This document shows, piece after piece, positions 1,899-18,768 of a stretch of 64,000 nt of DNA. The translations under genes were made by a program, and so were the position numbers. Source of the stretch: Flagellimonas ochracea (lineage in GTDB: Bacteria; Bacteroidota; Bacteroidia; Flavobacteriales; Flavobacteriaceae); assembly GCF_009903685.1 (NCBI RefSeq), contig NZ_JAAABI010000001.1, positions 744,001-808,000 of the forward strand. The letters are read 5' to 3'. The number at the start of each line of letters is the position of its first letter. Within the stretch, counting starts at the first letter, position 1. The notes under the pieces were generated by a model that ran no database searches, was not told the DNA's origin, and saw only the letters and a program-made list of their open reading frames with translations.

Positions 1899-2528
1899 AT
1901 GTCCCAACCCTCTTATCTAAAACTAATGCTTTATGTAGCCTTGGCCCTGTTGCTTTTGGGTGTCCTGTGGTATTTAACACTTGCACGCAACATTAATCCA
2001 GACCGCTTCTTTGTACAGAAATTGGGGGCCATTGCCTTTACAGAATTATATGTGAAGGATTTCAAAGGAGGCATAAATATTATCCCTGGTGTCGGGGAAA
2101 GATATATGTATGCCAGCAACGGCAAAATTAGATATTCCGCAAGCAATTACTTTCCGTTCTATGACATCCATTACAAGTTCGACATCGATGAAAACCAAAA
2201 TTTTACTATTACCAAACTTGCTACCAAACAGAACTTTGTTCTGGGAAAGGTAATTGACAAACGCTACGACGATTATGATGGTTCCCACCTCTATACCATT
2301 CGTGTCCCCAAAGAATATGAAGCTTCATTTACCTACACCCTAGGAAGAATGCCCTATTACGTGAACGTGCAGATGACCATGATGAGCAGTGGCGGGATGA
2401 AATACAGCAGCCAAACCAAAGCCGTAATCAAATCCCAAGAAGGAAAATACCTGATGCTTTCCCATAGTACCGGTCACTTGCCCCCTATTGAAAAAACAGG
2501 GATTTATTCTTTGGAAAATACAGACTAG
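1899..2528 (+). CDS. Membrane-anchored hypothetical protein
   Basis: A 209-residue protein with one N-terminal hydrophobic helix (about residues 9-29, LYVALALLLLGVLWYLTLA) and a soluble domain of about 180 residues rich in Tyr, Phe and alternating beta-like segments. The helix has no lipobox or clear cleavage site, so it is probably an anchor and the domain probably faces the periplasm. I do not recognise the family. Its TAG stop shares the bases CTAG with the stop of a glycosyltransferase 3' remnant on the opposite strand (2525-2611). Convergent overlaps of this kind recur in the window, and this one suggests that this gene and the glycosyltransferase were once direct convergent neighbours. 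Confidence 0.6.
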   Translation: MSQPSYLKLMLYVALALLLLGVLWYLTLARNINPDRFFVQKLGAIAFTELYVKDFKGGINIIPGVGERYMYASNGKIRYSASNYFPFYDIHYKFDIDENQNFTITKLATKQNFVLGKVIDKRYDDYDGSHLYTIRVPKEYEASFTYTLGRMPYYVNVQMTMMSSGGMKYSSQTKAVIKSQEGKYLMLSHSTGHLPPIEKTGIYSLENTD

Positions 2529-2611
2529 TTCGATTTGTTTTTGTTTTTTGCCTCAATCCATTTGCCCATGTATTTAGTGCTTGCCAGGGTATGGTACTGC
2601 AACAGAGACCC
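2525..2611 (-). pseudogene. Remnant of the 3' end of the glycosyltransferase gene
   Basis: Read on the minus strand, these bases encode GSLLQYHTLASTKYMGKW, then IEAKNKNKSN and a TAG stop. The intact glycosyltransferase at 5415-6656 ends with the same GSLLQYHTLASTKYMGKW, then IAEKNSN and a stop. Upstream of the shared stretch the similarity ends abruptly at base 2611/2612. The copy is therefore a displaced 3' end of that gene rather than a gene of its own. A longer minus-strand reading frame runs through it to 2872, but its extra residues have no resemblance to the glycosyltransferase and look like chance translation. Confidence 0.85.
2554..2611 (+). repeat. 58 bp direct repeat, left copy
   Basis: Bases 2554-2611 are identical to 5435-5492 in the same orientation. 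On both sides of the match the sequences differ at once, apart from a loosely similar AT-rich tail that codes the divergent last residues of the glycosyltransferase. The pair bounds a 2.8 kb segment. A perfect direct repeat inside the 3' end of a protein gene, with the full gene on one side and only its tail on the other, is the arrangement left when an element integrates into a gene end and restores it. Origin by a single crossover with a circular molecule or by a local rearrangement is also possible. Confidence 0.9.
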
Positions 2612-3645
2612 TTCCAAAAATTGATAGCACCAATTTTGAGAAAATCTATCCCTATGCCCTAAGGGGTAACATGAATGCTGTTTTTGAAATACTGGATGTG
2701 ACCGAGAATAATTCCTTGACTGAAAAGCAGCGAGACAAAAAAAAAAAATACCACGAACGCTTCCTATACAAATGTGAAGACTTTGACTATAATACGGATG
2801 ATGTTGTGTTGGTTGATTTGTATAACCGCTTTCAGCACTATTGGCGGTCTGTTCTTGTTGAAAATGTACCACAAAAATTGGTTGACAGCATTTTTAGGGG
2901 TGAGATGATCCACTTTCTAAAAAAGAACTACAAGCCTGAGCTTACGATTGAGAAAATACAAAGGGATTATTACACCTTGTTTCAGGATTTTTTCATATCT
3001 AGGAATACCTTCGGAATTGGAATTGGAAAAACAGGGCATTTGTACGACCTCTATCTTTGGAAAGAGCAAGAGGAAAAAGCGTATAGTATAGACCTACCGG
3101 AAGGGCAGACGATTGAGGTCCCTGTGGTTTTTATGCGGGGTTTTATAAGTAACGGTTGGTCACACTATACCACTTTTGGGCATAGCTTCAGTGGCGGATG
3201 GGCCATGAAAGACAAATTGTTCTGTGTGGAGGAATCCTATGGTCCCAAGGATGAGGAGGCATTTTTGATAAGCTACGTTTCCCATGAGGGGCAGCATTTT
3301 TCGGATTATACCTTGTTTCCCAAATTAAAACAGATCGATTTGGAATATAGGGCAAAGTTGACGGAACTGTCGTTGACCAAAGAAACCACCCACGATATAG
3401 TGAACAAGTTCATAACCAATGCCAAAAACGATACTTCTTTTGCCCATGCATTTGCAAATTACACCGTAATTCGAATGTTATCCGATAAGATCTTTGTTTC
3501 AGACTTTGAATCAGATCTTGAAAAATGGGAACAAATCCCTGTAAAAAGAATCAACAAAATCGCTTTGAAATTGTTAAAGGACCATTCAAAACAATTAAAG
3601 GCTTTGGGTGCCGATTCGGTTGAGGCATATATCAAAGCCCGTTGA
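2581..3645 (+). CDS. 5'-truncated HExxH metalloprotease-like protein (possible pseudogene)
   Basis: An open frame of up to 354 codons with real protein character throughout. It contains HEGQH at residues 235-239, a match to the HExxH zinc-protease signature, and Glu about 16 residues further on (QIDLEYRAKL) that could be the third ligand of a gluzincin. I do not recognise the family. The frame is closed by a TAG at 2575 inside the left 58 bp repeat, so the first ten or so codons come from antisense glycosyltransferase sequence. The native start and any signal peptide appear lost at 2612. Translation would need TTG at 2581 or ATG at 2671. A run of twelve A lies at 2737-2748. It may be a pseudogene or a cytoplasmic fragment. 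Confidence 0.55.
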   Translation: MPGYGTATETLPKIDSTNFEKIYPYALRGNMNAVFEILDVTENNSLTEKQRDKKKKYHERFLYKCEDFDYNTDDVVLVDLYNRFQHYWRSVLVENVPQKLVDSIFRGEMIHFLKKNYKPELTIEKIQRDYYTLFQDFFISRNTFGIGIGKTGHLYDLYLWKEQEEKAYSIDLPEGQTIEVPVVFMRGFISNGWSHYTTFGHSFSGGWAMKDKLFCVEESYGPKDEEAFLISYVSHEGQHFSDYTLFPKLKQIDLEYRAKLTELSLTKETTHDIVNKFITNAKNDTSFAHAFANYTVIRMLSDKIFVSDFESDLEKWEQIPVKRINKIALKLLKDHSKQLKALGADSVEAYIKAR

Positions 3646-3795
3646 ATTTTGAGAGAACGCTAATTCAGTCCTATTGATTTTGAACAGAATTAAGCGTTTG
3701 CTTTGAGGGAATATTTTATAGCAGTTTAGATTTTTTGTTGTAGATTTATGATATACTTGTTTAAATGTCCCAAATTTTAAACTAAATCCAGAACA

Positions 3796-5409
3796 ATGAA
3801 AAACCTACTTGTTTTCTTATTTACAATCAACTTTTTTTTATCCTTTTCACAAACCACGCCTCTGTTCAGGTCTCGATTTGAGCCCAATACTCTAGTAGTT
3901 CAAAATTTCCAAAACAATAATACATCCTTACCTTACAACAGTGCTATTTTTCAAGGCATTGATAATACTGTTTGGTGGCCTAGTGACTGGCAAAATGTAT
4001 TGGTCAATAATTATGCATTTGGCAATTTTGATCAATTCAACGTTAGTTATGACATGGGTACTGCCGCACAGAGACGTGCTCAATTGGTACCAGACCCTCT
4101 AGATCCTTCAAATACCGTATTAAAATTTTGGATTAAAGAAGCTTATATAGATAGTGTTAAGGGAAGGGTGCAGCCTAGCTACTATAATTCCCATGTTGGC
4201 AGTAATCTCGACGGGACTGGATTTGACATTTTTCATTATTCAATACGTTTGTTTCTTCCAACTGCAATATTTGATTCTGTTGCTGAGAATGAAAATATTA
4301 CAATCGGTGACGATGGAGACCTAATATTAGCACAGTTTTTTAATAATCCCGGTTGGATAGAAAATTTCCCAGATCCTTTCGGCCTTTCATTAAAACTTGT
4401 CAAAGAGCAGGGAAGTCAAGAATTTAACTTTAAAGTTGAAGGTCTAGTAAAAAACAGTCAAAATGAATGGACACCAATATGGAGTGAAACAAATGAAACA
4501 TATAGTATCCCTATTGGAGAATGGATAACACTTGATGTTTATTTGAAAGAGGGAGATGATATCGATGGTATGTTCAAGTTGAAATCAAGCGGAAATGAAA
4601 TTTTCAATATAAACAATTATACTCATCATCCTACCCCAACCCAAGATCCTGATGGGTTCACTCATATGAACCCTATGAATTTGTATGTATGGTGGAAGGA
4701 ATTGGAAAAATTCAGTAATGACATAGCATTATATTGGGATGACTTCAAAATATTTGATGATTCAGCTTTAAAAAGAAAGTTCATTAAACTAATATCCTCA
4801 GACTGTTCGACAACCTTGACATATAATAACCTCTCGCTTACGGCACAAGAAATCCCAACTATCGGCACAAATGGTGATCTTCCAAGCAATTGGAATTATC
4901 AATTTCGCTTTCAAAATACCGATGATGCAAACAATGTTTTTACTATTATTCAAAAGAATAAAACAGTGGACCTGTCAACATATGCCATTAATGGGCAACT
5001 AAGGGAAAATTCAGTTTACCGAGTTAGAGTGGCCATTAAAAATCATCCTTTCATTGATAACTATGGAGGCAGTAATGATAATTATTGCGAAATAAACACC
5101 CTGAATTTATTTGCTTCCTCAGCCCCGGCACTTATGGATAATGAAGAAATGTTTATGGTTTATCCTAATCCCATTAAAGATTGGACCACTTTTAGGTATA
5201 GTGTTTTTAATAATTTGAGTCCTTCCAAAATTTACATACTTAACGAGAAGAATCAGGTTATTAAAGAAATTTTAAATGATTATCGGAACAAAGGAATCCA
5301 TGAAAAAAGCATTTCCTTAGATAATAACCTAAGCCCTGGAAAGATTTATTTCTGCATTTTTGAGAATGGCCATAAAAAAATTGTTCAAAGGATTGTGTTA
5401 AATAGATAG
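3796..5409 (+). CDS. Secreted jelly-roll protein with type IX sorting domain (polysaccharide lyase-like)
   Basis: A 537-residue protein with a clear signal peptide (MKNLLVFLFTINFFLSFSQ) and a C-terminal type IX secretion sorting domain of about 85 residues, starting at MVYPNPIKDW and containing repeated beta-strand motifs and a basic end (VQRIVLNR). The central part (about 60-320), rich in Trp, Asp and Tyr, alternates short beta-strands in the manner of heparin-lyase or laminarinase-like jelly-roll domains. That assignment rests on general appearance only. A second beta-domain (about 325-440) precedes the sorting signal. The gene is visibly more AT-rich than its neighbours and lies inside the segment bounded by the 58 bp repeat, so it may be acquired. 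It would be exported to the cell surface or medium. Confidence 0.7.
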   Translation: MKNLLVFLFTINFFLSFSQTTPLFRSRFEPNTLVVQNFQNNNTSLPYNSAIFQGIDNTVWWPSDWQNVLVNNYAFGNFDQFNVSYDMGTAAQRRAQLVPDPLDPSNTVLKFWIKEAYIDSVKGRVQPSYYNSHVGSNLDGTGFDIFHYSIRLFLPTAIFDSVAENENITIGDDGDLILAQFFNNPGWIENFPDPFGLSLKLVKEQGSQEFNFKVEGLVKNSQNEWTPIWSETNETYSIPIGEWITLDVYLKEGDDIDGMFKLKSSGNEIFNINNYTHHPTPTQDPDGFTHMNPMNLYVWWKELEKFSNDIALYWDDFKIFDDSALKRKFIKLISSDCSTTLTYNNLSLTAQEIPTIGTNGDLPSNWNYQFRFQNTDDANNVFTIIQKNKTVDLSTYAINGQLRENSVYRVRVAIKNHPFIDNYGGSNDNYCEINTLNLFASSAPALMDNEEMFMVYPNPIKDWTTFRYSVFNNLSPSKIYILNEKNQVIKEILNDYRNKGIHEKSISLDNNLSPGKIYFCIFENGHKKIVQRIVLNR

Positions 5410-5414
5410 AAGTG

Positions 5415-6656
5415 TTAATTACTGTTCTTTTCCGCAATCCATTTGCCCATGTATTTAGTGCTTGCCAGGGTATGGTACTGCAACAGAGACCCCATAAAAT
5501 TCTCCGAACGGTGGGGGTCTAGGTTTGTGGACAACTCCTCCAATCTGGAATTCAATTGTTTGGACCAACGCCGTTTCGAGAAGTATTGTTGTATCAATTC
5601 TTTTCCCCGTTCTGAGGCGGCCCGCCAAGCTTCGTAATTCTGGTGCAGTTGCACTGCTGCGCTGGCAAAAGCTTCGGGCGCACTGATGATGCTTCCGGGC
5701 CAATCAGCGTCCTGATGCATCATGCCTTCAGCACCTATGACTGTAGTCACGCTTGGGGTACCATTTTTCATGGCCTGCACCAATTTTCCTTTAATCCCGG
5801 CCCCAAAGCGCAATGGAGCCAAGCATACGCGGGACTTTTGTATTTCTTTATCCAAATCATCGACCCAACCCATTATATGGAATCCTTCTTCCGGTTTGTG
5901 CATTTCCAGGACCTGTTTTGGGAAATAAGACCCGAAAACCTTTAAAGTGGCTTGTGGCAGCTCCTTACGTATCAAAGGCCAAATCGTCTGCTTTAAATGG
6001 ATTATAGCGTCCACATTGGGTTCGTGTTTGCCGCTACCGTAGGTTATAAAACCAGCTCGCTCATCAAATGAAGGCCAAGATGCTATGGTTTTCTCCGTAG
6101 ATTCTGGCAGCATAAAAGGCAGGTGCATCAAAATTTGCTCAGGCAACTTCAATTGCCCCATCAGCAATTCCATTTCATAGGTGGAGACCAATAGAGACAG
6201 GTCGCTGCGATAGATACTGGCTACTTCCCGTTTGGTGATGTCGTTGGCTTTCCACTTTTCCAACGTAAACTCCTCCCTTTTTTTGTGACATACTTCACGG
6301 GTTTTCCGCAAGGAGTGTAAATCTTCAGTATTTAAGATTCGGAAGGCTTTGGGAACCTGTTCTGCAACCCGCCAACCAAATTGTTCCTCCACCATAAAGC
6401 GGTCAAAAATCACCGTGTCAGGATTCAATGCTTTTACAAAGGTATCAAAACTAGCATGGTTGAGTTTGATGCCTACGGTTTGGATGCCCAAGTCATCTAG
6501 ATCAAAACTATGTAGAGTTTTTAAGGCCGTGGAAGCAAAGGTGATTTGATATTCAAAATCCAAAAAGGCTTGGAGCAATTGCAACATCCGTTGACCGGCT
6601 GCCGTAGTCTTGGGCTCGGGCCAAACATAGCCTATGACAAGGAGTTTTCTTGACAT
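5415..6656 (-). CDS. Glycosyltransferase, GT4-like (family 1)
   Basis: A 413-residue GT-B fold enzyme. The chosen start gives MSRKLLVIGYVWPEP, the usual first strand of the family followed by a glycine-poor loop and AAGQRM. An upstream in-frame ATG would add 36 unlikely residues coded by a low-complexity spacer. The donor-binding half is recognisable from GFITYGSGKHEPN, FHIMGWVDD (about 285) and the ending APLRFGAGIKGKLVQAM with GTP and TVIGAEGM. The acceptor is unknown; surface polysaccharide or protein glycosylation is likely. The last 20 or so codons lie in the 58 bp repeat, and its C-terminus (IAEKNSN) differs slightly from the displaced copy at 2525, suggesting that the gene end was exchanged. 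Confidence 0.82.
   Translation of the reverse strand: MSRKLLVIGYVWPEPKTTAAGQRMLQLLQAFLDFEYQITFASTALKTLHSFDLDDLGIQTVGIKLNHASFDTFVKALNPDTVIFDRFMVEEQFGWRVAEQVPKAFRILNTEDLHSLRKTREVCHKKREEFTLEKWKANDITKREVASIYRSDLSLLVSTYEMELLMGQLKLPEQILMHLPFMLPESTEKTIASWPSFDERAGFITYGSGKHEPNVDAIIHLKQTIWPLIRKELPQATLKVFGSYFPKQVLEMHKPEEGFHIMGWVDDLDKEIQKSRVCLAPLRFGAGIKGKLVQAMKNGTPSVTTVIGAEGMMHQDADWPGSIISAPEAFASAAVQLHQNYEAWRAASERGKELIQQYFSKRRWSKQLNSRLEELSTNLDPHRSENFMGSLLQYHTLASTKYMGKWIAEKNSN
5435..5492 (+). repeat. 58 bp direct repeat, right copy
   Basis: Identical to 2554-2611. This copy forms part of the intact glycosyltransferase gene on the minus strand, whose stop codon is at 5415-5417. The secreted-protein gene on the plus strand ends only five bases before that stop. 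With the left copy it defines the ends of a 2.8 kb segment carrying two plus-strand genes and no recombinase. Confidence 0.9.
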
Positions 6657-18740: not shown

Positions 18741-18768
18741 AAACCGTCCGTATGGGCGGTTTTTTTGT
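18741..18768 (+). terminator. Intrinsic terminator after the propeller gene
   Basis: ACCGTCC and GGGCGGT pair (one G-U) around a short loop, followed by seven T, 20 bases after the stop of the propeller gene. Confidence 0.85.

Follow-up and report, generated by a model that had tools for sequence, protein, structure and literature searches.

Probable import of neighbour genes through ordinary cellular recombination at the 3' end of a glycosyltransferase gene in Flagellimonas

CIMEs and pseudo-SCC at rlmH are recombinase-less, carry att repeats at the 3' ends of genes and have full, recombinase-bearing relatives at the same site. The locus described here lies in a stretch of 64,000 nucleotides from the genome of Flagellimonas ochracea, which we call the window. 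It resembles CIMEs and pseudo-SCC in that direct repeats of a gene end, here that of a glycosyltransferase gene (GT), flank recombinase-less cargo and that the gene end appears restored, but it differs from them in that no full recombinase-bearing relative was found at the GT site.

Several systems in which the end of a gene is displaced or duplicated offer further comparisons. For the displacement of rhs C-terminal tips, a circle and one crossover were proposed, with the old end shunted intact downstream together with a short conserved stretch (Jackson et al. 2009, PMC2935791). As in rhs, an incoming gene end and its neighbours seem here to have been joined to a conserved gene and the old end moved downstream; whereas rhs displacement concerns a toxin tip and an array, however, the present case concerns the last 15–29 codons of an enzyme gene and unrelated neighbour cargo, and displacement is rare. 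Homology-facilitated illegitimate recombination has been proposed for the displacement of T6SS effector/immunity genes (PMC5361080), to which our locus is similar in the probable homology anchor at a conserved gene, the illegitimate join at the other end and the old 3' parts lying downstream. There the anchor is the upstream part of the gene, whereas here it would be the gene end, and no effector/immunity function is involved. Linear DNA that enters E. coli with one gene end is for the most part degraded, or else ligated and inserted by a RecA-dependent single crossover, by which a part of the gene end of 109–950 bp is duplicated (PMC3240628). A trimmed gene end, a ligated circle, one crossover and a duplicated part of the gene end would be common to that laboratory system and the GT locus, but the duplications are here only 45–87 bp long. 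Finally, integrase-free hotspots with recombination at the flanking core genes are widespread (PMC5635113), and repeats flank 10–18% of small variable segments (PMC2884548). The GT locus is like these hotspots in the rapid change of neighbours beside conserved genes without mobility genes; unlike the clean double crossovers proposed for them, the additive events reported here leave a scar.

The direct repeat and the two tails of the glycosyltransferase gene

A sequence-only reading of the window had described a perfect direct repeat of 58 bp, the left copy of which is an orphan gene tail, and this was confirmed when the sequence was read again (table 1). The two copies have the same orientation and a spacing of 2881 bp. 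To the right the repeat forms the end of the intact GT, while the left copy belongs to a lone GT tail, GSLLQYHTLASTKYMGKWIEAKNKNKSN*, whose own stop shares CTAG with the stop of the facing gene C. On the gene-end side of the repeat, nine of the 12 further bases match (2542–2553 and 5423–5434), and all three mismatches of the 70-bp match thus obtained fall within those 12 bp (p = 0.004 under an even spread). Past a fixed point the two tails part sharply, ending in IEAKNKNKSN* in the displaced copy and in IAEKNSN* in the intact GT.

Table 1. Features of the insertion and of its surroundings in the window (positions counted from the first nucleotide of the window).
Feature	Position	Strand	Remark
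Gene C, 209 aa, unknown family	1899..2528	+	Native convergent neighbour of GT before the insertion; CTAG stop overlap with the displaced tail
Displaced (native) GT tail, 87 bp, own stop	2525..2611	-	Native status rests on the analogous pair G072 and L060
Left copy of the 58-bp perfect direct repeat	2554..2611	-	
16-bp stretch, GT sense ATGGGCAAATGGATTG, probable crossover region	2554..2569	-	Lies within the identity blocks of the three firm events
Gene D, imported, 5'-truncated at the repeat edge	2612..3645	+	Full-length homologue in G015
Gene E, 537 aa, imported, convergent with GT	3796..5409	+	Stops of E and GT 5 nt apart
New, imported last GT codons (IAEKNSN*)	5415..5434	-	Depart from the displaced native end beyond the repeat boundary
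Right copy of the 58-bp repeat, within the intact GT	5435..5492	-	
GT, group 1, GT4-like; 3' end is the insertion point	5415..6656	-	PF13692, E=3.8e-17

The same 4-base stop overlap occurs in GT-convergent neighbour pairs of 7 of 55 relatives, and the junction between gene C and the displaced tail therefore looks native. Both E with GT and C with the displaced tail form compact convergent pairs such as are seen between native neighbours, and the synteny of GT with a helicase and a sigma factor gene is conserved. In 1.56 Mb from 81 GT-centred loci, which were picked for carrying GT, so that the comparison covers those flanks only, direct repeats of at least 19 bp with one copy at the 3' end of an intact gene were limited to GT tails (in the window, in L043 and in L079); the window repeat is thus not a product of chance. 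A profile of the GT tail gave no other second tail above 12 bits in 80 relatives.

The same scar with other cargo in related genomes

A search for the GT tail joined to different cargo, which had been suggested at the outset, returned an 844-bp unit in three relatives and a 608-bp unit in a Maribacter MAG. In the three relatives, L043 (Flagellimonas marinaquae; on the same contig as G072), G086 and G019, a GT with a new tail end is followed by a single NAD(P)-binding gene (the Pfam families found in genes downstream of GT include PF13460) and then by a stray GT tail 843–844 bp downstream. In the MAG (L079), GT is followed by a gene for a protein of 109 aa and then by a stray GT tail 608 bp downstream, whose sequence departs from that of the resident GT also on the upstream side of the shared stretch. 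The scar arose independently, with different cargo, in the L043, G086 and G019 group and in L079. The displaced tails of the three firm events measure about 87, 45–51 and 76 bp and correspond to the last 15–29 codons; the three inserts have only the GT tail in common, and the tails start at differing positions. Among the two closest examined relatives of L079 (65–66% GT identity) no second tail was found, a comparison that covers the presence of the tail.

The sites in L058 and L060, which are two sister species, are empty: the gene lying after the stray tail of G072 there directly adjoins GT. The GT of L060 ends in ATTGAGGAGAAGAATAAAGGTTGA, which is also the sequence of the stray tail of G072, whereas the GT of G072 itself ends in AATAAGGAGAAGTAG; the stray tail is therefore native and the GT end of G072 imported. 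In this sibling case (G072, G086 and G019 occupied, L058 and L060 empty) the native sequence is intact, with no loss. These comparisons support two further claims of the sequence-only reading, namely that the segment was inserted at the GT 3' end and the gene end restored, and that in the ancestral order the gene at 1899–2528 was convergent with GT, both states being seen among the siblings. The contrast of empty and occupied sites that it had proposed to look for is thus available from siblings and extends to the window's own species by analogy. In G062, a 77% identical NAD(P)-binding gene comes straight after GT, with an amidohydrolase gene next and no stray tail, an order that is donor-like for the NAD(P)-binding cargo.

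A displaced-tail search of 79 further flanks of about 9 kb gave one weak, decayed candidate, in L197 (G352). The candidate tail, HQTMANTK*LSRFIEENKKQ, lies 5.6 kb downstream of GT, past a serine hydrolase gene, a GH3-like gene and a gene for a protein of 410 aa. Its DNA alignment is barely above background and it was left out of the firm events; a similar but older and larger event may have produced it.

Turnover, cargo and the shared stretch at the 3' side of GT

The 3' side of GT is an integrase-free hotspot of gene turnover. The first gene past the GT stop belongs to 35 families at 55 loci, while the three genes past the neighbouring sigma factor gene belong to 7, 4 and 4 families at 48 loci (families defined by BLASTP at 1e-5; the loci are related, and no formal p-value is claimed). 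The neighbours of GT are ordinary genes, mostly convergent with it and tightly packed (on the opposite strand in 50 of 55), their turnover mostly occurs without stray tails, and no recombinase or mobility gene is found among the 25 Pfam families listed, out of 72, for genes downstream of GT. GT itself evolves much faster than its neighbours, being 65% identical to that of [Muricauda] meishanensis where the adjacent helicase is 94% identical, with a range of GT identity of 55–77% in the helicase bin that holds this pair.

Other features of these flanks may be mentioned here. The last third of GT is highly variable, its tail excepted. A dispersed intergenic repeat (GTCATTCTGAGCGAAGCGAAGAATC and its relatives) forms arrays at L051:9084–9920, between the helicase gene and GT, and also in L055, L064, L071 and L088. 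In L047, a 74-bp intergenic direct repeat (at 18762 and +1817) is accompanied by more matching blocks at the same spacing, which suggests a duplicated 1.8-kb unit.

The cargo of the window insert consists of ordinary neighbour genes. A detail absent from the sequence-only reading is that D lacks its 5' part, the cut falling exactly on the edge of the repeat. The start of D coincides with that edge, homology to its 75% identical homologue in G015 ends there, and the N-terminal signal peptide of the latter (MKLILLIVLCTLCSVTVAQNKSAPYS-KIDSTNF) is absent from D; D is cut at the left junction as at a ligated broken end. With its sequence HEGQHFSDY, D is possibly a metallopeptidase that is secreted. 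In G004, G026, G029 and G033, distant homologues of D are found about 108–116 kb from GT on the same contig, so that the family appears to have a fixed home elsewhere in the genus. No copy of D was found on plasmids and no relative of it in viral contigs. Gene E (GC 34%) encodes a secreted protein with weak matches to a T9SS tail and to polysaccharide lyases; a comparison of it with solved structures gave no meaningful match, and a search of plasmids gave one distant homologue, on a Spirosoma plasmid.

In the three firm events the blocks of identity span 58, 35 and 19 bp, and their overlap is ATGG[GC][CA]AA[AG]TGGAT[TA]G, the codons of MGKWI, which form one conserved island. Met and Trp each have a single codon. 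Across 1764 species pairs, these codons are among the two commonest places in GT with exact identity of at least 17 bp, and they are the only such place in its 3' half. RecA-type recombination between diverged DNA would thus be expected to cross over there; a site-specific recombinase would fit this position too. The 16-bp shared stretch holds no attC-type core GTTRRRY on either strand, which separates it from integron cassettes. The best match to the 58 bp of the window in another species is 44 of 58 bp, while the two copies in the window are identical; donor and recipient would therefore have been conspecific, and the changed last codons of GT would accordingly require an earlier exchange at the same point.

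The insert encodes no recombinase, in agreement with the original statement that it lacks an integrase, and none lies within 100 kb of GT in five genomes (G000, G072, G086, G019 and G062). Tyrosine recombinases are encoded elsewhere in all five, the nearest one on the contig in G000 being about 350 kb from GT. Scans with the pattern KYMxKWI in 73 genomes of the genus and 397 of the family, with 48 candidates rescanned, gave no larger pair of GT tails and no recombinase-bearing version. Neither the exact 58 bp nor a degenerate tail was found in viral contigs, nor the insert in phages, and no tRNA or Rfam feature lies near the insert. Of the traits by which integrative elements (ICE, IME, island, CIME) are recognized, gene-end direct repeats at both boundaries and a restored end are thus present; a recombinase in the element or in a same-site relative was not found in about 470 genomes scanned for tail pairs, and there are no defined ends common to the members, given that D is cut at the boundary and the tail starts vary.

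How the insertion may have arisen

The window probably records an additive import of genes by the cell's own recombination at an exchange hotspot, which left a scar. A fragment from a strain with GT followed by E and D would have entered the cell, broken inside D and trimmed on the other side to the last ~80–90 bp of GT. Joining of its ends would have given a circle in which the truncated D abutted the GT tail (an equivalent illegitimate join to the sister chromosome might have served as well), and a single crossover within the conserved GT tail would then have inserted it. The outcome is what is seen, that is, the resident GT with a working end made of the donor's last codons, then E, the truncated D and the native tail beside its old neighbour C. 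The event can alternatively be worded as a related homology-anchored one instead of a circle and a single crossover; the single-crossover insertion of a circle, one of the two origins first envisaged, comes close to this explanation. As in rhs-like displacement, the old end is kept downstream with a part of the conserved region that varies in length, its native identity being documented in the sibling case, and the crossover falls within sequence shared by donor and recipient, namely the three identity blocks. For the recurrence at GT two causes are seen, the hotspot on its 3' side and the island of exact identity at the gene end.

The other origin first envisaged, that the segment is a minimal or decayed mobile element using an attachment site, is not supported, as there is no recombinase in the insert or within 100 kb of GT in the five genomes, no phage or viral copy was found, the cargo is ordinary and a gene is cut at one end. 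In its wider form, a recombinase encoded elsewhere would put small recombinase-less elements into the 3' end of GT as an attachment site and restore that end, the window holding such an element or a decayed larger one. This we consider unlikely. It would account for the restored gene end, for the independent occurrence of three insertions at one short stretch, overlapping in 16 bp, and for the sibling case without loss of native sequence, and the tyrosine recombinases present elsewhere in five of five genomes could supply the enzyme. All three displaced tails, moreover, are shorter than 90 bp in a gene of ~1240 bp, for which three random joins give ~4e-4, and a site-specific process would therefore suit too. 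It is opposed by the lack of any recombinase-bearing element at GT tails in the genus and family genomes and of a recombinase within 100 kb in the five genomes, by the lack of phage or viral copies, by an element end that cuts D and by a neighbour turnover that mostly leaves no stray tail. This explanation keeps a small share of probability because the 58-bp identity makes an earlier exchange necessary, because the contrast of empty and occupied sites comes from the sibling case and because the tails are short. That the last ~16–60 bp of GT are a true attachment site for dispersed recombinase-less cassettes of one to three genes, inserted in trans with end restoration in several Flavobacteriaceae genera, seems quite doubtful.

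Linear homology-facilitated illegitimate recombination, by which GT, E and D as a whole would come from the donor and the orphan tail would be a remnant of the recipient's GT, explains the stray tail and the truncated D without a circle and is the route proposed for displaced T6SS effectors (PMC5361080). The stray tail of L079, which departs from the resident GT upstream of the shared stretch also, suits it as well. The perfect identity of 58 bp points to one species for both tails, however, random joins should give longer remnants, and the divergence of the window GT from its nearest relative is normal for this gene (65% where the helicase is at 94%, within the range of 55–77%), which speaks against a swap of the whole GT for a foreign allele; we thus regard linear replacement as improbable. 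That the GT end or a whole second GT was duplicated locally in tandem, with D and E already adjacent, and that a deletion came after, is very improbable indeed. Such a duplication would leave a remnant beside an intact gene with identical 58-bp copies, but the tails differ sharply past a fixed point, the empty sibling site has one tail and no cargo, and no relative carries two GT copies at the site. Such a full second GT in relatives had been named in advance as evidence against an insertion, as had a 58-bp tail conserved among paralogues, and the tail proved not to be common to paralogues.

Import by the cell's own recombination, to which we return, is of a kind already known, gene-end displacement at an integrase-free hotspot, whose scars are here unusually readable. 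We caution that a gene-end direct repeat lacking an integrase is not necessarily the mark of a mobile element. The addition of genes at hotspots without mobile elements has mostly been inferred from statistics, and the GT locus offers, at one small conserved stretch, three readable scars that are firm and perhaps a fourth, together with sister sites in both the empty and the occupied state. Whether the additive route is a single crossover by a ligated fragment or the work of a hidden recombinase can thereby be put to a direct test.
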